NCBI RefSeq assembly: GCF_009662475.1
Contig: NZ_CP045571.1
Location: 1,920,501 to 1,984,500 of the forward strand
Source: Acidithiobacillus thiooxidans ATCC 19377
GTDB lineage: Bacteria > Pseudomonadota > Gammaproteobacteria > Acidithiobacillales > Acidithiobacillaceae
Reading direction: 5' to 3'
DNA length: 64,000 nt
Position 1 is the stretch's first letter. Each line of letters starts with the position of its first letter. Below are positions 4,066 to 23,233 of the stretch, one piece after another. The notes below the pieces were generated by a model. It saw only the letters and a list, made by a program, of their open reading frames with translations. It did not search any database and was not told the DNA's origin. A program made the position numbers and the translations under genes.

Positions 4066-5118
4066 TCAGGTTTCAGCAGACGGTGGGGGTTGCAACCATT
4101 CCCGCCAGATGGCGAGCAGGACGGCGAGGATGACCGGCCCCAGAAATAATCCAAGCAGACCAAATGTCAGAATGCCACCCAGCACCCCAAACAGGACGAG
4201 CAGAAAAGGAATATGCACTGCGCTGGAAATCACCAGTGGCCGGATCAGATTATCAATCCAGCTCACCACCAGAGCCCCCCAAAGTGCCAGCCCCACACCC
4301 GCAGCGATTTGTCCATGGACCAGCAGCCAGATACTGGCAGCCCCCCACACCAGGGGCGTACCAAATGGTAAAAAAGAAAATAACAGCGTTATTACGGCAA
4401 GCAACACCGGGGCAGGTAATCCTGCTGCCCAATAGCCCAATCCCGCAAGGGCACCCTGAGCCAGGGCCGTCGCCAGAATTCCGTAAATGACAGCGCGAAT
4501 GGTGTTGGCCACGGTTTGCAGATAGTTATCCCCCCGCTGACCCAGAACCTGATGGACCATACGCCGCAGCTGATCAAGCAGTTCCAGTCCGTAACGGTAA
4601 AAGAAAAACGCCGTAATGAGGACCAACACCAGCAGGGCGGCAAAGCGACCAATCCCGCCTGCCAGCATTCCGATATGCCCCGCCCAGGCGGACAAATCTG
4701 GAGACAAAGCCCCCGGCCGAAACTGCGCTTTCCAGGAAGACGGTATTTGTTCAAGCAGGTTCTTTATCCAGCCGCTATGAGTCCATTGAGTGCTTATCAG
4801 GATATGGGCATCCTGCTGACTGAGTTCTGTCAGCACATGATGCAACTCTGTACCCAGGGTCATGCTAAGAAACAGAACAGGGAGAATGAAAATCAGCGCC
4901 AGCATGAATGTCGCTCCGCAGGCGGCCAGCAGGGGTGGCCAGTGACGGCGCATGGGCTTTGCCAAAGGCCACGTTGCGTAAACCAGAATGGCAGCCCAGA
5001 CAATAGCAGGCAGGAAAGGTGCGAGGATTTTCCAGACTAATGCAAAAAAAACAAGGGCAGCGAGAAGTTGCCCGAGGGCAAGTCGCAAATCGCGAACCGT
5101 CAGATCCGCGAGGCGCAT
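4066..5118 (-). CDS. AI-2E / PerM family transporter
   Basis: An integral membrane protein of 350 residues, the usual size for the AI-2E (PF01594) superfamily. Long hydrophobic segments at the N-terminus (LAALVFFALVWKILAPFL, then AIVWAAILVYATWPL) and a cluster of C-terminal helices with the typical glycine-rich segment PFLLVLFGVLGGI and LGLFLGPVILA are visible. Members export small molecules or act as ion antiporters; the substrate cannot be read from the sequence. It lies 6 bases downstream of the malic enzyme gene, on the same strand, and probably forms an operon with it. About 150 non-coding bases separate it from ilvD. Confidence 0.85.
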   Translation of the reverse strand: MRLADLTVRDLRLALGQLLAALVFFALVWKILAPFLPAIVWAAILVYATWPLAKPMRRHWPPLLAACGATFMLALIFILPVLFLSMTLGTELHHVLTELSQQDAHILISTQWTHSGWIKNLLEQIPSSWKAQFRPGALSPDLSAWAGHIGMLAGGIGRFAALLVLVLITAFFFYRYGLELLDQLRRMVHQVLGQRGDNYLQTVANTIRAVIYGILATALAQGALAGLGYWAAGLPAPVLLAVITLLFSFLPFGTPLVWGAASIWLLVHGQIAAGVGLALWGALVVSWIDNLIRPLVISSAVHIPFLLVLFGVLGGILTFGLLGLFLGPVILAVLLAIWREWLQPPPSAET

Positions 5119-5124
5119 GCTTGC

Positions 5125-6363
5125 CTAGAGACGGGAGACGCCGCTTTTGCGCGCGGCTGCACTCACTGCACCCGCCACCCATTGTCGCAGGCGCGGGTCA
5201 AGGGGCTTGGGAATGAAATATTCAGGCCCAAAGCTCAGTCCGTCAGTCCCTGAAAAACCATAGGCTTGTTGAACTTCTTCAGGAACGGGCTCCCGGGCCA
5301 AACGCGCCAGCGCATCGACAGCGGCCAGCAGCATTTCCTGATTAATCTGACTTGCGCGACAATCCAGGGCACCCCGAAATAAAAACGGAAAACCCAGGAC
5401 ATTATTCACCTGATTGGGCATATCCGAACGCCCGGTCGCCATGATGGCATCTGGACGCAAGCGTTTTACGGCAACGGGATCAATTTCCGGGTCAGGATTC
5501 GCCAGGGCAAATATCACCGGCTTTGCAGCCAGTCCGGACAAAGCCGCTTCGGGAATGGCACCGCGTACTGAAACGCCGATGACCGCATCGGCATCCGCCA
5601 GCATATCCATCAGGGTCCAATGCGCAGGTGCCGTAGCAAAGGGCTGGTGCCAGTGCGTCAGGTCGCTGCGGCCTGCATGCAGCACGCCATGCACATCACT
5701 CAAATACACCGCCTCAACACCAAGAGCGCGCAGCATCTTTGCAATGGCCAGACCCGCCGCACCGGCTCCAACAATGGCCACTTTAACGCCCTTAAAGACC
5801 TTACCCTGCAATTCCAGTGCATTTTGCAAAGCAGCGGCGACAATAACGGCAGTGCCATGCTGATCATCGTGAAAAACCGGAATGTCCAACATTTTTTGCA
5901 GGGCTTCTTCCACCTGAAAACACATGGGCGCCGCAATATCTTCCAGGTTGATGCCGCCAAAACCCGGAGCAATCGCCGCCACAACGTCAATCAGATGTTC
6001 CGCATCGCGGGCCTGTACTTCAATATCAAAGGCATTGATGTCCGCAAAATGCTTGAAAAGCAAAGCCTTGCCTTCCATGACCGGCTTACCCGCCAGTGTC
6101 CCGACATTACCCAGTCCAAGAACCGCCGTACCATTGCTGACTACGGCAACCAGATTACCCTTGCCCGTATAGTCGTAGGCTTTTTCCGGGTCAGCAGCAA
6201 TTTCCCGTACCGGTGCCGCAACCCCAGGGGTATAGGCAAGAGATAAATCATCCTGACTTTTACAGGGCTTGCTAGGTATGACTGAAAGTTTACCGGCAGG
6301 ACTTTGGGCGTGGTAATCCAGCGCCCGCCGTCGCAATTCTGCCTGGGCTTCAGCCTGTTCCAT
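5125..6363 (-). CDS. maeB: NAD(P)-dependent malic enzyme, short form
   Basis: Oxidative decarboxylation of malate to pyruvate. The N-terminal malic domain has [30 protein letters not shown] and HDDQHGTA. The NAD-binding Rossmann motif [12 protein letters not shown] follows, then [10 protein letters not shown]. At 412 residues it lacks the C-terminal phosphotransacetylase-like domain of E. coli MaeB (about 760 residues), so it is the short bacterial type, and the symbol is by family only. It sits 6 bases after rpmE. NAD versus NADP use cannot be decided here. Confidence 0.9.
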
Positions 6364-14107: not shown

Positions 14108-14119
14108 TTGTGTACACAA
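14108..14119. promoter_or_regulatory. Palindromic operator of the Phd/PIN module
   Basis: A perfect 12-base palindrome TTGTGTACACAA lies 36 bases before the antitoxin ATG. Its core GTGTACAC is, as I recall, the type of site bound by P1 Phd, and the downstream gene is a Phd/YefM-family protein. Autorepression is inferred. Confidence 0.65.
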
Positions 14120-14155
14120 TTTCGCCTATTAATTCCAATATTGAGGACACATAAT

Positions 14156-14419
14156 ATGGAAATTTCCATTCGTGAGTTCAGAGCCCATCTTGCGCAGTAC
14201 CTCTCTGCAGCACAGCAGGGACAAACCCTCGATATCACCTCTCATCACAAACCGGTAGCCCGCGTTATCGGGATACCGTCTGTGACAAATTGCGGCATCA
14301 CCCGTCTTCTGGCCAGCGATATGGCCCAATGGCAAGGCGGCAAACCGTTGGGTGCAAGCATTTGTCTTTCATCCACTGCACGCAGCGTGTCAGAAATAAT
14401 ACTGGAAGATCGCGGTTGA
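14156..14419 (+). CDS. Type II antitoxin, Phd/YefM family
   Basis: An 87-residue antitoxin. The N-terminus MEISIREFRAHLAQYL, followed by AQQGQTLDIT and KPVARVIG, is the DNA-binding/dimerisation fold of Phd/YefM. ATG 14156 follows a GAGG ribosome site. The frame extends 16 codons further upstream across the palindrome, but that start is unlikely. Its TGA overlaps the TTG start of the PIN toxin gene (TTGA), so the two are translationally coupled. Confidence 0.88.
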   Translation: MEISIREFRAHLAQYLSAAQQGQTLDITSHHKPVARVIGIPSVTNCGITRLLASDMAQWQGGKPLGASICLSSTARSVSEIILEDRG

Positions 14420-14859
14420 TTTTATTTTGTGACACCTCCGCATTGATCAAGCTTTATCTGACGGAAGCGCACAGTGATGCTGTCAAAACCTTGCTTGCAC
14501 AGGCCGACGTAGTTGCTGGCTGTCGTATTGCCTGGGCTGAAGCCTGCGCGGCCCTTTCGCGGCGCGGACGGGAATCACCCACAGACATGCCCCTTATTGA
14601 ACAAGCCAAGCAGTATCTGGCCAAAGACTGGCCGCATTACCTGATCATCGAAGTGACTCAACACATTGTTGAACAGGCCGGTGATTATGCCGACGCTTTT
14701 GCCCTGCGCGGATATGACAGCGTACAACTGGCAGCCGCACATCAAGCCCAACAGGTTTCCGGAATGTCCGTCATGTTTGCCTGTTTTGATTTGCGCCTCA
14801 ACAAGGCCGCACAGTTGCTGGGTATGGAAGTGCCCTTCCTGCAAAAAAGTGGCCGATAA
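14416..14859 (+). CDS. PIN-domain (VapC-like) toxin
   Basis: A 147-residue ribonuclease-type toxin. The PIN acidic residues are visible: Asp in ILFCDTSALIKLYL (residue 6), Glu in AWAEACAAL (about 40), Asp in ALRGYDSVQLAAA (about 100) and Asp in FACFDLRLN (about 120). The start TTG 14416 overlaps the antitoxin stop. The open frame reaches back to 14290, but that part overlaps the antitoxin and does not look like PIN sequence. The pair is Phd-type antitoxin plus VapC-type toxin, a common mixed module; here it looks complete. Confidence 0.87.
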   Translation: MILFCDTSALIKLYLTEAHSDAVKTLLAQADVVAGCRIAWAEACAALSRRGRESPTDMPLIEQAKQYLAKDWPHYLIIEVTQHIVEQAGDYADAFALRGYDSVQLAAAHQAQQVSGMSVMFACFDLRLNKAAQLLGMEVPFLQKSGR

Positions 14860-14884: not shown

Positions 14885-15328
14885 ATGCCAAATTCCATTC
14901 CGCATCTACTCCTGCAAGAACAATTTCTGAACCGTTTTAATGGGCGCACCCTCATCGTCCATCGCGGTTTTCCTGATCAATATTTCAAGGAACTGCTGGA
15001 ACAGCCTGGTGGAGGCGGGCATTTCCGGATAGATGTGCGGATTCCTCCCGGCACGCCGCCGACACCCATTGAATGGGTTGTTCATCAACACGTCATCCCT
15101 CTGGATTTACCCATGCCGCTGCTGGTCAAGGTCGATCCGGACTGTCTGTATTTGCGCCATTTGCTGCATGGTGAGCATGTCGGGCATCCCAGCGAGATTC
15201 TCTGGATGCTAGATGCCATCCGTGAGCGTTATCACATGCGTCTGGAGCGCCAGCAGGGCTATTACCAGCCCGTGCCGGGGATGCCTGTAGAAGAAAATGA
15301 CCTTGACTATGACTTCAACAATGACTGA
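14885..15328 (+). CDS. Unrecognised 147-residue protein, possibly E2 (UBC)-like
   Basis: Not assigned by any motif I can name with certainty. The start is ATG 14885. It has one cysteine, C87 in PDCLYL. Residues 47-66 (FRIDVRIPPGTPP, then TPIEWVV) resemble the strand-turn-strand of ubiquitin-conjugating enzymes around their YPxxPP motif. The single Cys falls about where the catalytic Cys of a 147-residue E2 such as UbcH5 lies (C85), and a helix-like HPSEILWMLDAI follows. The HPN motif is absent. The next genes are an E1-like and a JAMM-like protein, overlapping by 8 and 4 bases. The E2 idea is inference from motif order and context; the safe call is 'hypothetical'. Confidence 0.6.
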   Translation: MPNSIPHLLLQEQFLNRFNGRTLIVHRGFPDQYFKELLEQPGGGGHFRIDVRIPPGTPPTPIEWVVHQHVIPLDLPMPLLVKVDPDCLYLRHLLHGEHVGHPSEILWMLDAIRERYHMRLERQQGYYQPVPGMPVEENDLDYDFNND

Positions 15329-16091
15329 CTCCCTGGATGATGCCGCCCTAATGCGTTACTCCCGACAGATTCTTCTGCCGGAAATTGACCTCGAAGGACA
15401 GAAACGTCTGCAGCTAAGCCGGGTACTGATCATCGGCATGGGTGGACTGGGTTGTCCGGCATCGCAGTATCTGGCTGCGGCAGGAATTGGACAACTGACC
15501 CTTTGCGATGGGGACGTTGTAGAAATCAGTAATCTGCAACGTCAGATTCTTTATACTGAAGCGGACCTGGGACGGCCCAAGGCCAGCGCCGCCCGTGAAC
15601 GACTGCTGGCCATGAATCCCCATATCCGGGTGAGTGCCTGGACTGAAAACGCCAGCAGTGAATCGCTGGGCAGCGCCCTGGAAACCCATGATCTGGTTCT
15701 GGATTGCTGCGACAATTTTCACAGCCGCCACGCCATCAACCGCGCCTGTCGCGAGGCTCGCGTACCACTGGTCAGTGCCGCCGCCATTCGCTGGGAGGGG
15801 CAGCTCAGTGTGTTTGATTTCCGGGACCCGGATACCGCCTGCTATGCCTGCCTGTATCCAGAACAAGGCGAAGAAAACGGTGAAGACACCTGCTCCCGCA
15901 ACGGAGTGCTGGGGCCCCTGCTGGGCATTCTCGGCAGTATGCAGGCCGTTGAGGCTATTCGTCTGCTCAGCGGTCACAACTCCCCGCTGAGCGGACAACT
16001 CCTGTTGGTCGACGCCCGCCACTGGCAATGGCGTCAGGTACAACTGCGCCGCGACCCAGCCTGTGGGGTTTGCGGCGGGGTCTGCGCATGA
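15321..16091 (+). CDS. moeB: MoeB/HesA/ThiF family E1-like adenylyltransferase
   Basis: Adenylates the C-terminus of a ubiquitin-fold carrier (MoaD or ThiS in known pathways). Motifs: RYSRQILLPEID at the N-terminus, nucleotide-binding VLIIGMGGLGCPASQYLAAAG, the DGDVVEISNLQRQ block with catalytic arginine, VLDCCDNFHSRHAIN, the zinc pairs CYAC and CGVC, and the Cys in DTCSRNGVLGP. ATG 15321 overlaps the preceding stop by 8 bases; in-frame ATGs at 15297 and 15309 are alternatives. The size (256 residues) fits MoeB. No moaD or moaE lies nearby; thiS is 7 kb away. The next gene is a JAMM-like protein, so a role outside molybdopterin synthesis is possible. Confidence 0.85.
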   Translation: MTDSLDDAALMRYSRQILLPEIDLEGQKRLQLSRVLIIGMGGLGCPASQYLAAAGIGQLTLCDGDVVEISNLQRQILYTEADLGRPKASAARERLLAMNPHIRVSAWTENASSESLGSALETHDLVLDCCDNFHSRHAINRACREARVPLVSAAAIRWEGQLSVFDFRDPDTACYACLYPEQGEENGEDTCSRNGVLGPLLGILGSMQAVEAIRLLSGHNSPLSGQLLLVDARHWQWRQVQLRRDPACGVCGGVCA

Positions 16092-16453
16092 ACCCTTTGA
16101 TTTTACCCCGCACTCTGGCCAACGCCCTGCTCGGTGATCTGCAGTCCGGCGCTGGACAAGGGCTGGTCGGCGCTTTGCAAGAACGCCCCTGCTCCGTTTA
16201 CCCGGTCAGTGCCGAACAACGCGGCATGGCGCTGGATCTGCTGACCAGCCGGGGCGAAACGCTTTTTGCCTACTATGCGGCGGCTCCGCAGGAACCTTAC
16301 AGCACTTTGCCCGAAAGGCCCCTGAGCCCCTTTGATCCACCCTACCAAATCCGTCTGGCAACCGACATCCGTGGGGTGATCGTACTACGCGCCTATGCCC
16401 GGACAGCCGGACAAGGCTGGCAAGAAAAAATCATCGAGCTGGAAAATGACTGA
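16088..16453 (+). CDS. JAMM/Mov34-like protein lacking the metal-binding motif
   Basis: A 121-residue protein overlapping the E1-like gene by 4 bases (ATGA). Its layout matches small bacterial JAB/Mov34 (M67) peptidases: an N-terminal helix, GLVGALQERPCSVYPV, then ALDLLTSRGETLFAYY, a loop where the HxHP motif should be (here AAAPQEPY), then LSPFDPPYQI in the place of the S-x-x-D region, and a final RGVIVLRAYAR strand. The histidines are replaced by alanine and tyrosine, so metal-dependent peptidase activity would be lost. The family assignment rests on alignment by eye and on the E1-like neighbour; it could be an unrelated protein. Confidence 0.5.
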   Translation: MNPLILPRTLANALLGDLQSGAGQGLVGALQERPCSVYPVSAEQRGMALDLLTSRGETLFAYYAAAPQEPYSTLPERPLSPFDPPYQIRLATDIRGVIVLRAYARTAGQGWQEKIIELEND

Positions 16454-17228
16454 AGACCATGGATTTTCGGTCATGTCCTTCAATATTCAGGTGGGTATTG
16501 GCTCTCATCGTGCCCGGCACATGCTGCTCCATGGCTGGAAATATGTAATGCCGCACGGCCAGAGTCTGCGCAATCTGGAACGCATTGCCGAAATTCTTTC
16601 AGAAGCGGATGTTGTCGGCCTGAATGAAGTAGATGCCGGCTCGTTTCGCAGCCAGTATGTGAATCAGGCCGGTTTTTTGGCAGAACGGGCGCACTTTCCT
16701 TACTGGGCACAGCAACGCACCCGTGATTTTGGCGAGCTGGCCCAGCACAGTAACAGCGTACTCTCGCGCTGGCCCATTGCCCGCAGTGAACCGCACACTC
16801 TGCCGAGCTTCATGAAAGGTCGGGGCATGCTGGAAACCAGCACCGAAATCAATGGTAGGCCTCTGACTGTCGTCATCACCCATCTGGGCCTCAGTCGTCA
16901 CGCCCGTTTCAGTCAAATCCGCGATCTCGCGCAACGTCTGCGCCAGCGCCGCCATCTCATTCTCATGGGCGACCTCAACTGCACTGCCCGCTCTCCGGAA
17001 ATCCGCCTGCTCCTGGCCGAAAGCGGGCTACAGGCGCCGCCCTGGAACCCGCCTACCTTTCCGAGCTGGTCTCCGCGCTTTTCCTTTGACCACATTTTCT
17101 GTAGCCCGGACCTGGAATTCACCGAAATTGAAAGTATTGGCGAACCCCTGTCCGATCATCTGGCTCTCAAGGCGCGATTGCGCTGGAACTCGAAGACAGC
17201 GGCAAATGTAACGACCCGGTCACATTAA
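16446..17228 (+). CDS. Endonuclease/exonuclease/phosphatase (EEP) family protein
   Basis: A 260-residue member of the EEP fold (DNase I-like; phosphodiesterases and phosphatases). The motifs are in order: VMSFNIQVG (Asn), VVGLNEVD (metal-binding Glu), VITHLGLS (His), LMGDLNCT (Asp/Asn), FSFDHIF and LSDHLALKA (catalytic Asp-His). No signal peptide. ATG 16446 overlaps the preceding stop by 8 bases, so it closes a four-gene overlapping operon. Its 3' end overlaps the convergent lipoprotein gene by 62 bases. The substrate is unknown. Confidence 0.85.
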   Translation: MTEDHGFSVMSFNIQVGIGSHRARHMLLHGWKYVMPHGQSLRNLERIAEILSEADVVGLNEVDAGSFRSQYVNQAGFLAERAHFPYWAQQRTRDFGELAQHSNSVLSRWPIARSEPHTLPSFMKGRGMLETSTEINGRPLTVVITHLGLSRHARFSQIRDLAQRLRQRRHLILMGDLNCTARSPEIRLLLAESGLQAPPWNPPTFPSWSPRFSFDHIFCSPDLEFTEIESIGEPLSDHLALKARLRWNSKTAANVTTRSH

Positions 17229-17743: not shown

Positions 17744-18850
17744 ATGACCGACCATAATCCCCAAGAGCCTCGCTGGCAGCTTCAGGAGCAGACCATTACC
17801 CTGAGCGGTCGCTGGACCTTACGCCGCCTGGGCGGCAGTTTTGCCCGACAGCAAAAAATGCTGAGCAACATTCACGCCGATCTGCTCTGGGATTTACGCA
17901 ATCTGGAAGCTCTGGACAGTGCCGGTGCGCTGCTGCTCTGGCAGGTCTGGGGAAACCGTTTCCCCGAAAAAATACAGTTGAACGATCTGCATCAGGCCAT
18001 ATTCACCCGACTGGCCGATTTACAACCTTTGACGCATCCCCCGCGCCGTCCCTTTCAGATTCTAGACGCTCTCGGTGCTTTTCTTGTCGAAACCGGCGGT
18101 GATCTTTGGGGGATTTTTTTGTTGATGGGTGCGCTACTGCTGGAATTCGGGCGCGGCTTGCGGTATCCCCGCAGCTTTCCCTGGCGGGAAATATCCGCCA
18201 CTATTGTCAGCACCGGCCCCAGTTCCCTGCCTATTTTGACGCTCATCGGTTTTTTGATCGGAGTGGTAATTTCCTTTCAGTCGGCTTCCACTCTGGCCCA
18301 ATATGGAGCCAACATCTACATCGTCAATATTGCCGGTCTGAGTATTTTGCGGGAGTTTGGCCCGTTGATCACGGCGATCATTCTTTCCGGCCGTTCGGGT
18401 TCGGCGTTTACCGCCCAGATCGGGGCCATGCGCGTTACCGAAGAACTCGATGCCCTGCGCACCTTTGGTATCCCCCCCATCCGCCGTCTGGTGCTACCCA
18501 AAGTCATCGCCCTGGCTCTGGTGGTTCCATTGCTGGTGTTGTGGACGGACATGGTGGGGATTCTCGGCGCCATGCTGGTCGCCAAGGCCAACCTGGGCAT
18601 CAGCTATCACTTTTTCATTCAGGAAATGCCCGTTGCCGTTCCCAGTTTCAATTTATGGCTGGGTATTATCAAAGGCGCCGTTTTCGGCATACTGATTTCT
18701 TGGATTGCCGGTTTTCATGGCCTGAAAGTCAAGCCCAACACCACCAGCCTGAGTCGGGAAACCACCAATTCCGTGGTGTTCTCCATCACCCTGGTGATTC
18801 TTATTGACGCCATCCTCGCGCTGGTATTTGCCAATACGGGGATTAGCTGA
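17744..18850 (+). CDS. mlaE: MlaE-type ABC permease with N-terminal STAS domain
   Basis: Inner-membrane permease of an MCE/Mla-type phospholipid transporter, 368 residues. Residues 1 to about 105 form a STAS-like domain (WTLRRLGGSF, LLWDLRNLEALDSAGALLLW). The rest is the MlaE core with LIGFLIGVVISFQSA, LIREFGPL-type sequence (LSILREFGPLITAIILSGR), GAMRVTEELDALRTFGI and the C-terminal ETTNSVVFSITLVILIDAIL. The fused STAS form replaces a separate MlaB. The stop overlaps the mlaF start by one base. No MlaD/MCE or MlaC gene follows; mlaF is the last gene on this strand. Confidence 0.9.
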   Translation: MTDHNPQEPRWQLQEQTITLSGRWTLRRLGGSFARQQKMLSNIHADLLWDLRNLEALDSAGALLLWQVWGNRFPEKIQLNDLHQAIFTRLADLQPLTHPPRRPFQILDALGAFLVETGGDLWGIFLLMGALLLEFGRGLRYPRSFPWREISATIVSTGPSSLPILTLIGFLIGVVISFQSASTLAQYGANIYIVNIAGLSILREFGPLITAIILSGRSGSAFTAQIGAMRVTEELDALRTFGIPPIRRLVLPKVIALALVVPLLVLWTDMVGILGAMLVAKANLGISYHFFIQEMPVAVPSFNLWLGIIKGAVFGILISWIAGFHGLKVKPNTTSLSRETTNSVVFSITLVILIDAILALVFANTGIS

Positions 18851-19701
18851 TGGAACGACCTGATGCCATCATCATGGAAAATATTGGTACCCGCTTCGGA
18901 GACTACTGGATTCACCGCAATCTGGACCTGAAAGTCCACTGCGGTGAAATCCTCGCCATTGTCGGTGGCAGTGGCACCGGCAAAACCACCCTGTTGCGGG
19001 CCATGATGGGCCTGGTCCCCATTGCCGATGGCAAGCTGACCATACTCGGCAAAAATCCGCAAACCCTGACCCTGCGCGAACAAATTGCCCTGCGCCAGCG
19101 CTGGGGCGTACTTTTCCAGCAAGGTGCCCTGTTTAGCGCCCTGACCGTTTTCGAAAATATTGCCTTTCCCCTGCGTGAATGGGGACACCTGACCCGCAGC
19201 GAAATCAATGATCTGGTGGCCCTGAAATTACAGATGGTCGGACTTCAGCCCAAAGATGCCTGGAAACTGCCCGCCGAGCTTTCGGGCGGCATGATCAAGC
19301 GCGTGGCCCTGGCGCGAGCGCTGGCCATGGAAGCGGAAATTCTCTTTCTGGACGAGCCCACCTCGGGACTGGACCCCATTGCCGCCTCGGATTTTGATGC
19401 ACTGCTGCGGCAGGTACATGCGGATATCGGCTTTACCGTGGTCATGGTCAGTCATGATCTGGACAGTCTCGCGGCCACCGCCAGCCGGGTGGCGGTACTG
19501 GCCGACCACAAGGTACTGACCGTGGGCCCCCTCAATGCAGTGCAGGCCGTGGATCATCCCTATATTCAGGCATTTTTTCATGGGGAGCGCGGTGAAAGGC
19601 TGCTCAACAGCCTCCGCGCCACCGGCAAGCTGCCTACTCTCCCCAGCGACGACCAATCTGGTTGGGCACGCCAATCTGATCCAGCACCCGCGCGACCATA
19701 A
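18850..19701 (+). CDS. mlaF: MlaF-type ABC ATPase
   Basis: ATP-binding partner of MlaE, 283 residues. Walker [10 protein letters not shown], signature [15 protein letters not shown], Walker [14 protein letters not shown] and the switch His ([10 protein letters not shown]) are present. The GMIKR variant of the signature is typical of MlaF rather than of importers. Its last 68 bases run antisense to the end of ubiX. With no MCE-protein gene adjacent, the substrate-binding partners must be elsewhere. Confidence 0.92.
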
Positions 19702-21630: not shown

Positions 21631-22209
21631 TTAGTGCATGGTACTGCGGGATGGAGCGCCCAAACGCTGATCAAGCATCTGATTGGCCAGTTCAAAAAGT
21701 GCAGAAAATTTTTCCAGCAACTCCTGATAACGGGACATCAACGCTTCTTCTTCGGCCAGCACCGGATGGTCGTCCAGAGAACGGGCCAACATGTCCCGGG
21801 CCATGCCCAAACGCTCCACCACCTCAAAATACGCCCAACCATCGGGAGGCTGGGCACTGGCTGCGGCCATTTCCTGCTGGTAATACCAAACCAGGGCGCC
21901 CCGGGTAACAGCCTGGGCAGCAGTGGGTTCTTCCACTTCCGTCAACTGCCACTCATGACTGGTGGGTTCCTGCCAGTCCATATACACATGCCAGCGCTGA
22001 CCGTTTTCGTCGGACATAAACTCCAGACGCACCCCAACCCCCTGGTCGCCAAGGCGGGCAATCAGGCGTTCTGCCTCTTCCCAATCATCGGCATAATCCG
22101 GAATGGGACTGCCGGGGACAGAACCCATGACCAGCAGCTCCACCTGCTCCAGATAATGGTCGTCCAGCGCGGCGCTACGGGCGATTTCCAGCGCGTCATT
22201 GCTACTCAA
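21631..22209 (-). CDS. Hypothetical protein between thiG and mpl
   Basis: About 192 residues if started at TTG 22209, which overlaps the thiG stop by 8 bases; the frame is open further upstream, but inside thiG. It is soluble and acidic, with no signal peptide, membrane segment or cysteine cluster. Visible blocks are [46 protein letters not shown] and a helical C-terminus ending [13 protein letters not shown] do not recognise a family. Its operon position suggests only co-expression with thiazole and cell-wall recycling genes. Confidence 0.7.
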
Positions 22210-22990
22210 AGAAGGTTCCTTCCAACGGACTGCTGGCGCTGGCATAGAGCTTGCGCGGCATCCGGCCAGCCAAAAATGCCTTGCGCCCGGCATCCACACC
22301 CAGACGCATGGCTTCCGCCATCAATATCGGATCCTTGGCAGCGGCAATGGCCGTATTCAGGAGTACCCCATCACAACCCAGTTCCATGGCTACCGCCACA
22401 TCCGAAGCCGTACCCACCCCTGCATCCACCAGAATCGGCACCGTCGCCTGTTCAAGAATAATGCGCAGATTGTACGGATTACGGATCCCCAACCCCGAAC
22501 CAATGGGCGCAGCCAGCGGCATCACCGCCACACAGCCCATTTCCGCAAAGGCCTTGCAGGCTACCGGATCATCCATGCTGTACACCATCACCTCAAAACC
22601 ATCGGCAACCAGGGTTTTGGCCGCTTCATAGGTTTGCCGCATATCTGGATATAGGGTCTGAGGATCGCCGATGACTTCCAGCTTGACCAGTTTCCAGTCG
22701 CCCAGTTCACGGGCCAGACGACAGGTGCGCACCGCGTCTTCAGCAGTATAACAGCCCGCCGTATTGGGAAGAATGGTAAATTGATCCGGAGGCAAAGCCT
22801 CCAGCAAATTGGGGGCGTCGCGATCCTGGCCAAGATTCACCCGACGCAGCGCCACGGTAATGATTTCCGCGCCCGCCGCATCCACGGCCGCCCGGGTTTC
22901 CGCAAAATCCTTGTACTTGCCCGTACCGACCAATAATCTGGACTGATACGCACGCCCCGCGATCACCAGGGGATCTTTATGTATGGTCAT
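22202..22990 (-). CDS. thiG: Thiazole synthase
   Basis: Builds the thiazole phosphate of thiamine from deoxyxylulose 5-phosphate, dehydroglycine and ThiS thiocarboxylate. 262 residues, TIM barrel. [12 protein letters not shown] near the N-terminus, the Schiff-base lysine in [11 protein letters not shown] (about residue 100), [16 protein letters not shown], and the phosphate-binding [32 protein letters not shown]. It is 42 bases downstream of thiS, its sulfur-carrier partner. Confidence 0.97.
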
Positions 22991-23032: not shown

Positions 23033-23233
23033 TTAACCGCCGCCCACCGCCTGAATAATTTCCAGACGATCACCCGCAGCAACCATAACCTCGCCATGGG
23101 TGCTGCGCGGCACAATTTCGCCATTGCGCTCTACCGCCACCCGCCGCTCCGCCCAACCCAAATCGGCCAGTAGCTCCAGCACCGTCATTTGCTCCGGCAC
23201 CTCACGGGGCACACCATTTACCTGTATCAGCAT
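23033..23233 (-). CDS. thiS: Sulfur carrier protein ThiS
   Basis: A ubiquitin-fold sulfur carrier for thiazole synthesis. 66 residues from ATG 23233 (MLIQVNGVPREVPE), with LLADLGW and VAVERNGEIVPRS, ending in the required C-terminal Gly-Gly (AVGGG), which becomes the thiocarboxylate. The longer frame to 23269 would overlap the Phd-like gene upstream. The E1-like protein at 15321 could in principle adenylate it; no dedicated thiF is seen here. Confidence 0.93.
   Translation of the reverse strand: MLIQVNGVPREVPEQMTVLELLADLGWAERRVAVERNGEIVPRSTHGEVMVAAGDRLEIIQAVGGG

Follow-up and report, generated by a model that had tools for sequence, protein, structure and literature searches.

A probable MoeB-centred sulfur-carrier gene set with a JAMM protein that has lost its catalytic motifs in Acidithiobacillus thiooxidans

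Acidithiobacillus thiooxidans ATCC 19377 carries a run of overlapping genes for an unnamed protein, an E1-like enzyme, and a JAMM-like protein, raising the question of whether these genes conjugate a ubiquitin-like protein or serve the sulfur carriers ThiS and MoaD. The run lies in a window of 64,000 nucleotides (the whole stretch of DNA that was analyzed, G000:C1:1920501-1984500) of a 3.4-Mb genome, and an earlier note on this DNA had described it as a possible divergent E2-E1-JAMM conjugation trio. The frames are as described there, with gene 1 (P0001) overlapping gene 2 (P0002) by 8 bases and gene 2 overlapping gene 3 (P0003) by 4, but the run does not stop at three genes, as P0004 follows gene 3 with a further overlap of 8 bases. 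We consider it likely that the whole is a MoeB-centred sulfur-carrier gene set that includes a JAMM without its active site. It would be a variation on the E1-JAMM pair already known from sulfur-carrier systems, joined by a protein of an unnamed family lacking a conserved cysteine. A system serving ThiS/MoaD, which the earlier note had offered as its alternative, is a better reading than conjugation.

P0003 itself has no match in Pfam or NCBIfam, and PF14464, which matches 2 of 15 aligned orthologues (locus L031 being confirmed as one), does not match it. In two genomes from the other family of the order (G029 and G030, loci L031 and L038), the gene after MoeB encodes an intact JAB protein with the motifs GEE(I/V)CGLIG, HSHP, and SATD. 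Alignment of P0003 to these two proteins shows that HSHP has become AAAP, the Glu-bearing stretch before GLIG is deleted, and the Ser-x-x-Asp is gone. From the window alone the peptidase had been said to look dead, and the loss of all three elements relative to L031 and L038 bears this out; the HxHP motif had been said to carry Ala and Tyr at its histidines, which is correct as to the loss of the motif but not as to the residues, both histidines being Ala. The intact L031 JAMM matches P0003 directly (E 1.4e-5), and this match, together with the same place after MoeB in G029 and G030, indicates that the ancestor of P0003 was an intact JAMM encoded at this locus. The predicted model of P0003 has a JAB/MPN fold (predicted local distance difference test [pLDDT] score, 83.5), and its best solved match is PfJAMM1 of Pyrococcus (5ld9_A; Z 10.9, root mean square deviation [rmsd] 2.7, 112 aligned), with an E-value of 2.2e-4 in Foldseek. 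The JAMM-like assignment and the MPN fold proposed for gene 3 are therefore both upheld by the intact orthologues, the direct match, and the predicted fold. MPN folds without a metal site are known from Rpn8, CSN6, and eIF3 subunits, and a structural comparison matched several chains of this kind to P0003, which differs from them in being a bacterial protein of 121 residues encoded beside a sulfur-carrier E1.

Gene 3 could be evaluated by BLAST or frame reading in 22 loci of the order (at L025 the contig ends too early). It is present in 20 of these, intact in 2 of the 20; in L039 and L040, the 450 bases that follow MoeB showed no trace of it. Its ratio of nonsynonymous to synonymous substitution rates (dN/dS) is 0.13 in the close clade, 0.24 to 0.44 in nine of ten wider pairs, and 0.105 in the tenth; the corresponding values are 0.10 and 0.10 to 0.22 for MoeB, 0.21 and 0.07 to 0.21 for gene 1, and 0.06 and 0.07 to 0.16 for gene 4. 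Gene 3 is under purifying selection even though its catalytic motifs are lost. Two things temper this: gene 3 changes faster than MoeB, its dN being 1.7 to 2.8 times that of MoeB in nine of the ten wider pairs, and dS is near saturation (>1) in several pairs, so the ratios are rough. Such rates, along with the lost motifs, the shorter protein, and the absence of the gene after MoeB in two genomes, are what a decaying relic without function would leave. The dN/dS of gene 3 is nevertheless lower than that of gene 1 in the close clade and does not reach 0.45 in any of the ten wider pairs, the open frame and the overlaps are kept, and the predicted fold is intact, which makes a relic doubtful. The locus allows the inactivation of a JAMM protease to be traced: the gene has been retained without its active site, and in the other family of the order its orthologues at this position are still intact.

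Enzymes of the MoeB/ThiF family adenylate the C-terminal Gly-Gly of ThiS and MoaD, enabling thiocarboxylate formation. P0002 matches PF00899 with 276 bits and, over its full length, the MoeB subfamily model NF004281 with 316.1 bits against a cut-off of 266, which places it in the MoeB/ThiF subfamily and supports the E1 assigned to it previously; it scores under the cut-off of the moeB equivalog model TIGR02355 (281 versus 376.55). A search of the genome found three ThiF-family proteins, of which P0002 is the sole MoeB/ThiF-type enzyme, the others being one nearest to TcdA, which scores under the cut-off of the TcdA model, and one of the PRTRC type. PADLOC matches of MoeB to E1-E2 defence systems are partial and come from the common ThiF domain, and the defence reading was rejected. 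Two carriers of PF02597 are encoded in the genome: ThiS, which lies next to thiG within the window and 6.6 kb from the overlapping genes, and MoaD, located elsewhere and followed by a MoaE gene. Both end in Gly-Gly without a tail. With PF02597 as the only ubiquitin-like family scanned, the operon has no match and the genome has only these two. Hence the proposed search for di-glycine ubiquitin-fold partners did find candidates, and the statement that no ubiquitin-like protein is adjacent holds for the operon but overlooks the ThiS encoded within the window. As P0002 is the sole MoeB-type enzyme and two Gly-Gly carriers are present, it likely activates both ThiS and MoaD. What sets it apart from other MoeB/ThiF enzymes, besides its score against TIGR02355, is the company of its gene, namely, those for a dead JAMM and for a protein of an unnamed family. 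As a separate observation, the frames upstream of the PRTRC-type ThiF gene (G000:C1:1748049-1748738, L003) resemble other PRTRC genes by eye, and this gene probably belongs to a mobile element.

If the carriers of this genome already end in Gly-Gly, what was the intact JAMM for? The intact L031 JAMM is matched in 96 of 369 genomes in a sample of the class; among the 30 best-matching loci, MoeB lies within 1.5 kb in 15 (including the two that belong to the order), and HxHP..S/TxxD is kept in all 30. C-terminal residues of sulfur carriers were compared in genomes hand-picked from this sample. JAMM-positive genomes were those matching the L031 JAMM at E < 1e-30 (35, then a further 16), 12 of the first 35 being the genomes in which the pattern was first noticed, and JAMM-negative genomes were taken from outside the 96 (35, then 16, picked mostly for completeness). 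G034, G053, and G142, all JAMM negative, have no carrier and were dropped, as was L174 (G028), which is not a carrier. Counted as carriers were PF02597 matches ending in Gly-Gly that reach the profile end, with E up to about 1e-10; rows that were weaker, stopped short, or fell outside the matches listed were excluded, and only the C-terminal letters served to distinguish ThiS from MoaD.

In the genomes examined, carriers that continue after the Gly-Gly occur only where this JAMM is encoded. In the first set, residues follow the Gly-Gly in 22/67 carriers of JAMM-positive genomes, 0/61 of JAMM-negative genomes, and 0/15 of Acidithiobacillaceae. Counted by genome, a tailed carrier is found in 17/35, 0/34 (Fisher p 1.2e-6), and 0/8, respectively, and the difference persists when the 12 discovery genomes are left out (11/23 versus 0/34, p 7.3e-6). 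In fresh genomes taken after the prediction had been written down, 8/32 carriers are tailed in JAMM-positive genomes and 0/22 in JAMM-negative ones, that is, 8/16 versus 0/14 genomes (p 0.0027). Both sets together give 25/51 versus 0/48 genomes (p 1.5e-9). At one extreme the tail is a single residue, and at the other the protein is a complete ThiS-ThiG fusion (L317 and L324); the tailed ThiS of the G030 type, for example, ends GGG-A and that of the G131 type GGG-TAADNREGK. The JAMM retains its full motif in 49 of the 51 positive genomes (30 checked first and the other 21 after the tail test); in the homologues L366 (G229) and L370 (G232), Asn or Glu replaces the last metal-site Asp, and neither genome has a tailed carrier. 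With ThiG recognized by eye, the ThiS-ThiG fusions are complete in L317 (G200) and L324 (G067), while those of L230 (G277), L275 (G165), and L280 (G372) are cut by the DNA end. In L331 (G193) and L342 (G041), the third carrier ends ...PAVAGG and continues into a stretch that by eye is rhodanese-like; for these two rhodanese-like fusions, as for three of the ThiS-ThiG fusions, the available DNA ended inside the frame.

The pattern suggests a simple rule for the genomes examined, namely, that tailed carriers, ThiS-ThiG fusions included, are found only with this JAMM, and it makes a maturation role of the JAMM directly testable in ordinary laboratory bacteria. From the co-occurrence of tails with the JAMM and from published work on DRJAMM, we infer that the intact relatives probably cut C-terminal tails or fused proteins off ThiS/MoaD precursors, exposing the Gly-Gly. 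DRJAMM of Deinococcus, as described in part of PMC8832034, cuts a MoaD-MoaE fusion and leaves the C-terminal Gly, which fits such a role; it shares with the present system the JAB/MPN fold, and the intact orthologues of P0003 carry the full motif and adjoin the E1. Parts of Iyer 2006 (PMC1779556) describe JAB peptidases paired with an E1+rhodanese protein and say that thiamine and molybdenum cofactor operons contain no JAB gene, and the portions covered do not mention carrier tails. In our literature searches, no statement was recognized that ThiS/MoaD tails track a MoeB-linked JAMM, a search blurred by the fact that "ThiS" also matches the word "this." QbsD/QbsE and HcyD/HcyS are reportedly JAMM proteases maturing carriers (our literature searches did not find them). 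The window copy differs from all such carrier-maturing JAMMs, as it is without the catalytic motifs and the carriers of its genome need no trimming.

Several points weigh against a maturation role. About half of the JAMM-positive genomes have no tailed carrier, and G029, a member of the order's other family, encodes three carriers alongside its intact JAMM, none of them tailed; trimming is thus not the only use of this JAMM, and further or other substrates are needed. Two of the eight positives in the second set (G041 and G193) owe their status to a third carrier, which is fused to the rhodanese-like stretch and lies next to a different JAMM-like gene; leaving these two out reduces the second set to 6/16 versus 0/14 (p 0.019) and the whole to 23/51 versus 0/48 (p 1.2e-8). 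The genomes were hand-picked and the tests carry no phylogenetic correction, and JAMM negative means no match to this JAMM only, so that more distant JAMMs are possible in these genomes. The association could also arise if the JAMM freed carriers from conjugates and the tails were tolerated by-products. The untailed half of the JAMM-positive genomes would suit this account, as would other JAMMs, HvJAMM1 included, which part of PMC8832034 says cleave ubiquitin-like SAMPs; the same article, however, has DRJAMM cutting a MoaD-MoaE fusion, and tails are found in 0/48 JAMM-negative genomes. By the usual chemistry of these carriers, moreover, tailed forms and ThiS-ThiG fusions should be inactive if uncleaved. 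We regard deconjugation as an unlikely origin of the link and favor carrier maturation.

A sequence of events can then be proposed for the MoeB-centred set. P0002 would adenylate the C-terminal Gly-Gly of ThiS and MoaD, and gene 3 would descend from a JAMM metalloprotease often encoded beside MoeB, which in its ancestral form probably exposed the Gly-Gly of ThiS/MoaD precursors. As the carriers examined in Acidithiobacillaceae already end in Gly-Gly, JAMM activity appears dispensable in this family, and this would be why the catalytic motifs, which are observed to be lost, were not kept. The ancestral protease was thus probably a carrier-maturation enzyme that later became dispensable, and the remaining MPN domain without a metal site probably binds MoeB or a carrier. 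Gene 1 is not an E2 but a member of an unnamed family without a conserved cysteine, seen here only in genomes that bear RuBisCO.

How does gene 1 fit? P0001 has no Pfam or NCBIfam family match; P0001 and its relatives gave only stray matches to Pfam, at E 0.15 or weaker and in one member each, P0001 alone gave zero matches to NCBIfam and PADLOC, and no solved relative was found by sequence at a useful E-value. The literature searched contains no recognized work on the family. P0001 has a single Cys, C87, which had been likened to the catalytic Cys of an E2. In an alignment of 34 relatives, however, position 87 is Cys in 3/34, no column exceeds 3/34 Cys, and CxxC is not present. Residues invariant in 34/34 include H26, G28, F47, R48, P61, P76, P78, R91, H92, L93, H117, and N138, which suggests a putative binding site rather than a redox site.

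The UBC fold consists of one helix and then four consecutive strands. The AlphaFold2 model of P0001 is confident (pLDDT 90.1, predicted template modeling score 0.85) and has the order alpha-beta-alpha-beta-alpha-beta-beta-alpha-beta-beta-alpha, which is not UBC-like, as helices separate its first strands. The IPPGTPPTPIEWVV stretch, taken earlier for the YPxxPP strand region of an E2, falls in a helix of the model (residues 61-73), and that candidate was discarded. No UBC is among the 50 Foldseek or 50 VIA matches listed, which alone excludes nothing. The lack of a conserved Cys and the non-UBC order of the predicted model together lead us to reject the E2 reading. The nearest solved structures are mostly thioredoxins, but the resemblance is weak: the best VIA match has Z 5.0 (rmsd 3.7, 91 aligned), and the best Foldseek match, to a different protein, has E 0.17, none being under 0.001. 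P0001 shares with thioredoxin-like folds lacking CxxC the order of strands and helices and the invariant P76 and P78 before the third strand; it differs in an extra C-terminal hairpin and helix and in having no conserved Cys, with no sequence relation found. Tentatively, P0001 is most likely a non-redox thioredoxin-like binding or chaperone protein. This assignment has against it the weakness of the fold resemblance just described and the failure of a P0001 profile to find anything among thioredoxins. A sequence relationship to thioredoxins was rejected (hhalign E 0.27 versus 0.13 for a JAMM control, the thioredoxin profile being narrow).

Gene 1 is found in 23 of 31 searched genomes of the order and stands directly before MoeB in 23/23, often overlapping it, so that the order of the genes is not due to chance. 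Within the same genus, G003, G005, G007, and G008 have MoeB and gene 3 without gene 1, and G014, with split contigs, is probably another such case, in which a doubtful 28-residue match (E 0.07) before MoeB may be a gene 1 remnant. Genes 1 and 3 are lost independently, MoeB being kept. On 14 named contigs with a P0001 relative, 12 are from Acidithiobacillus or Igneacidithiobacillus and 2 from Sulfuriferula. Outside the order, 17 loci were viewed (15 from the class sample and 2 from Sulfuriferula), of which L065 and L072 stop at the contig end on the MoeB side. MoeB is not beside gene 1 in any of the 15 with both flanks visible, and at a distance of 2 to 5.5 kb from gene 1, five of the loci outside the order show a partial match to the ThiF domain that is weaker. 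The neighbors include one gene cluster in five loci (L058, L059, L060, L063, and L064; FIST-domain in the two scanned, L058 and L063), a phosphoribulokinase cluster in three (L061 scanned), and transporters. As far as seen, the family adjoins MoeB only in Acidithiobacillales.

These distributions bear on two further explanations. A divergent E2-E1-JAMM system conjugating a ubiquitin-like protein, with a JAMM that only binds, would account for the gene order and overlaps, the E1, and the predicted JAB fold, and Bil and CBASS are bacterial operons of the E1/E2/JAB kind. Such operons (types 6a-6e) are also described in part of Iyer 2006 (PMC1779556), and the adjacency of E1-like and JAB genes is common to them and to the present locus. 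Here, however, there is no E2 with a catalytic Cys, no dedicated PF02597 ubiquitin-like protein was found in the operon, the JAB site is lost, helices lie between the first strands of the gene 1 model, gene 1 is away from MoeB in the 15 loci outside the order, and genes 1 and 3 are lost independently. We therefore consider conjugation very improbable. Alternatively, gene 1 could be a working partner in MoeB sulfur transfer in Acidithiobacillales, for example, a sulfur-donor docking protein or a MoeB regulator, with genes 1 to 3 forming one sulfur-delivery module. Its invariable place before MoeB in the order and its thioredoxin-like order of elements would agree with this, but the genomes that keep MoeB and gene 3 without it, and its occurrence elsewhere near FIST, phosphoribulokinase, and transporter genes rather than MoeB, speak for a low probability.

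In the class sample, gene 1 occurs in 19 of the 369 genomes, and the RuBisCO large subunit is present in 19/19 of these compared with 187/369 overall (Fisher p 2.4e-6, uncorrected for phylogeny). The P0001 family is a candidate component of autotrophic metabolism that has so far gone unstudied. In a bolder version, which we hold to be quite improbable, P0003 would act as a pseudo-deubiquitinase, re-used to accompany MoeB or ThiS/MoaD permanently in the way that Rpn8 accompanies Rpn11, and would form with the gene 1 family a sulfur-delivery module tied to autotrophy.

The features of the locus are collected in Table 1. P0004 adjoins the gene set in 17 of 21 Acidithiobacillaceae loci with gene 1, and some of the other four stop at the contig end.

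Table 1. Overlapping genes and thiamine genes in the window
Feature	Position	Strand	Description
P0001 (gene 1)	14885..15328	+	147 residues; unnamed family; predicted alpha/beta fold with thioredoxin-like element order; no conserved Cys
P0002 (gene 2)	15321..16091	+	256 residues; MoeB-type E1-like adenylyltransferase
P0003 (gene 3)	16088..16453	+	121 residues; JAB/MPN (JAMM) protein, degenerate, with Glu, HxHP, and SxxD motifs lost; purifying selection
P0004 (gene 4)	16446..17228	+	Endonuclease/exonuclease/phosphatase family protein (Pfam)
ThiS	23033..23233	-	66 residues; ends ...AVGGG; tail-free; likely MoeB client
thiG (thiazole synthase)	22202..22990	-	PF05690, 368 bits; downstream of thiS

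Upstream, genes for a Phd/YefM-type antitoxin and a PIN-domain protein (window positions 14108-14859) lie between a lipocalin (CrtC-like) gene and gene 1. The PIN gene is missing from the same place in several relatives (L005, L006, L009, L010, and L011), which implies that the antitoxin/PIN pair was recently inserted or lost. Downstream, genes for an MlaE permease and an ABC ATPase accompany gene 1 at a short distance not only in the window (17744-19701) but also in the two Sulfuriferula loci (L016 and L017, approximately 4350-6220); the Pfam check covers the window and L016, and the shared neighborhood may be a coincidence.

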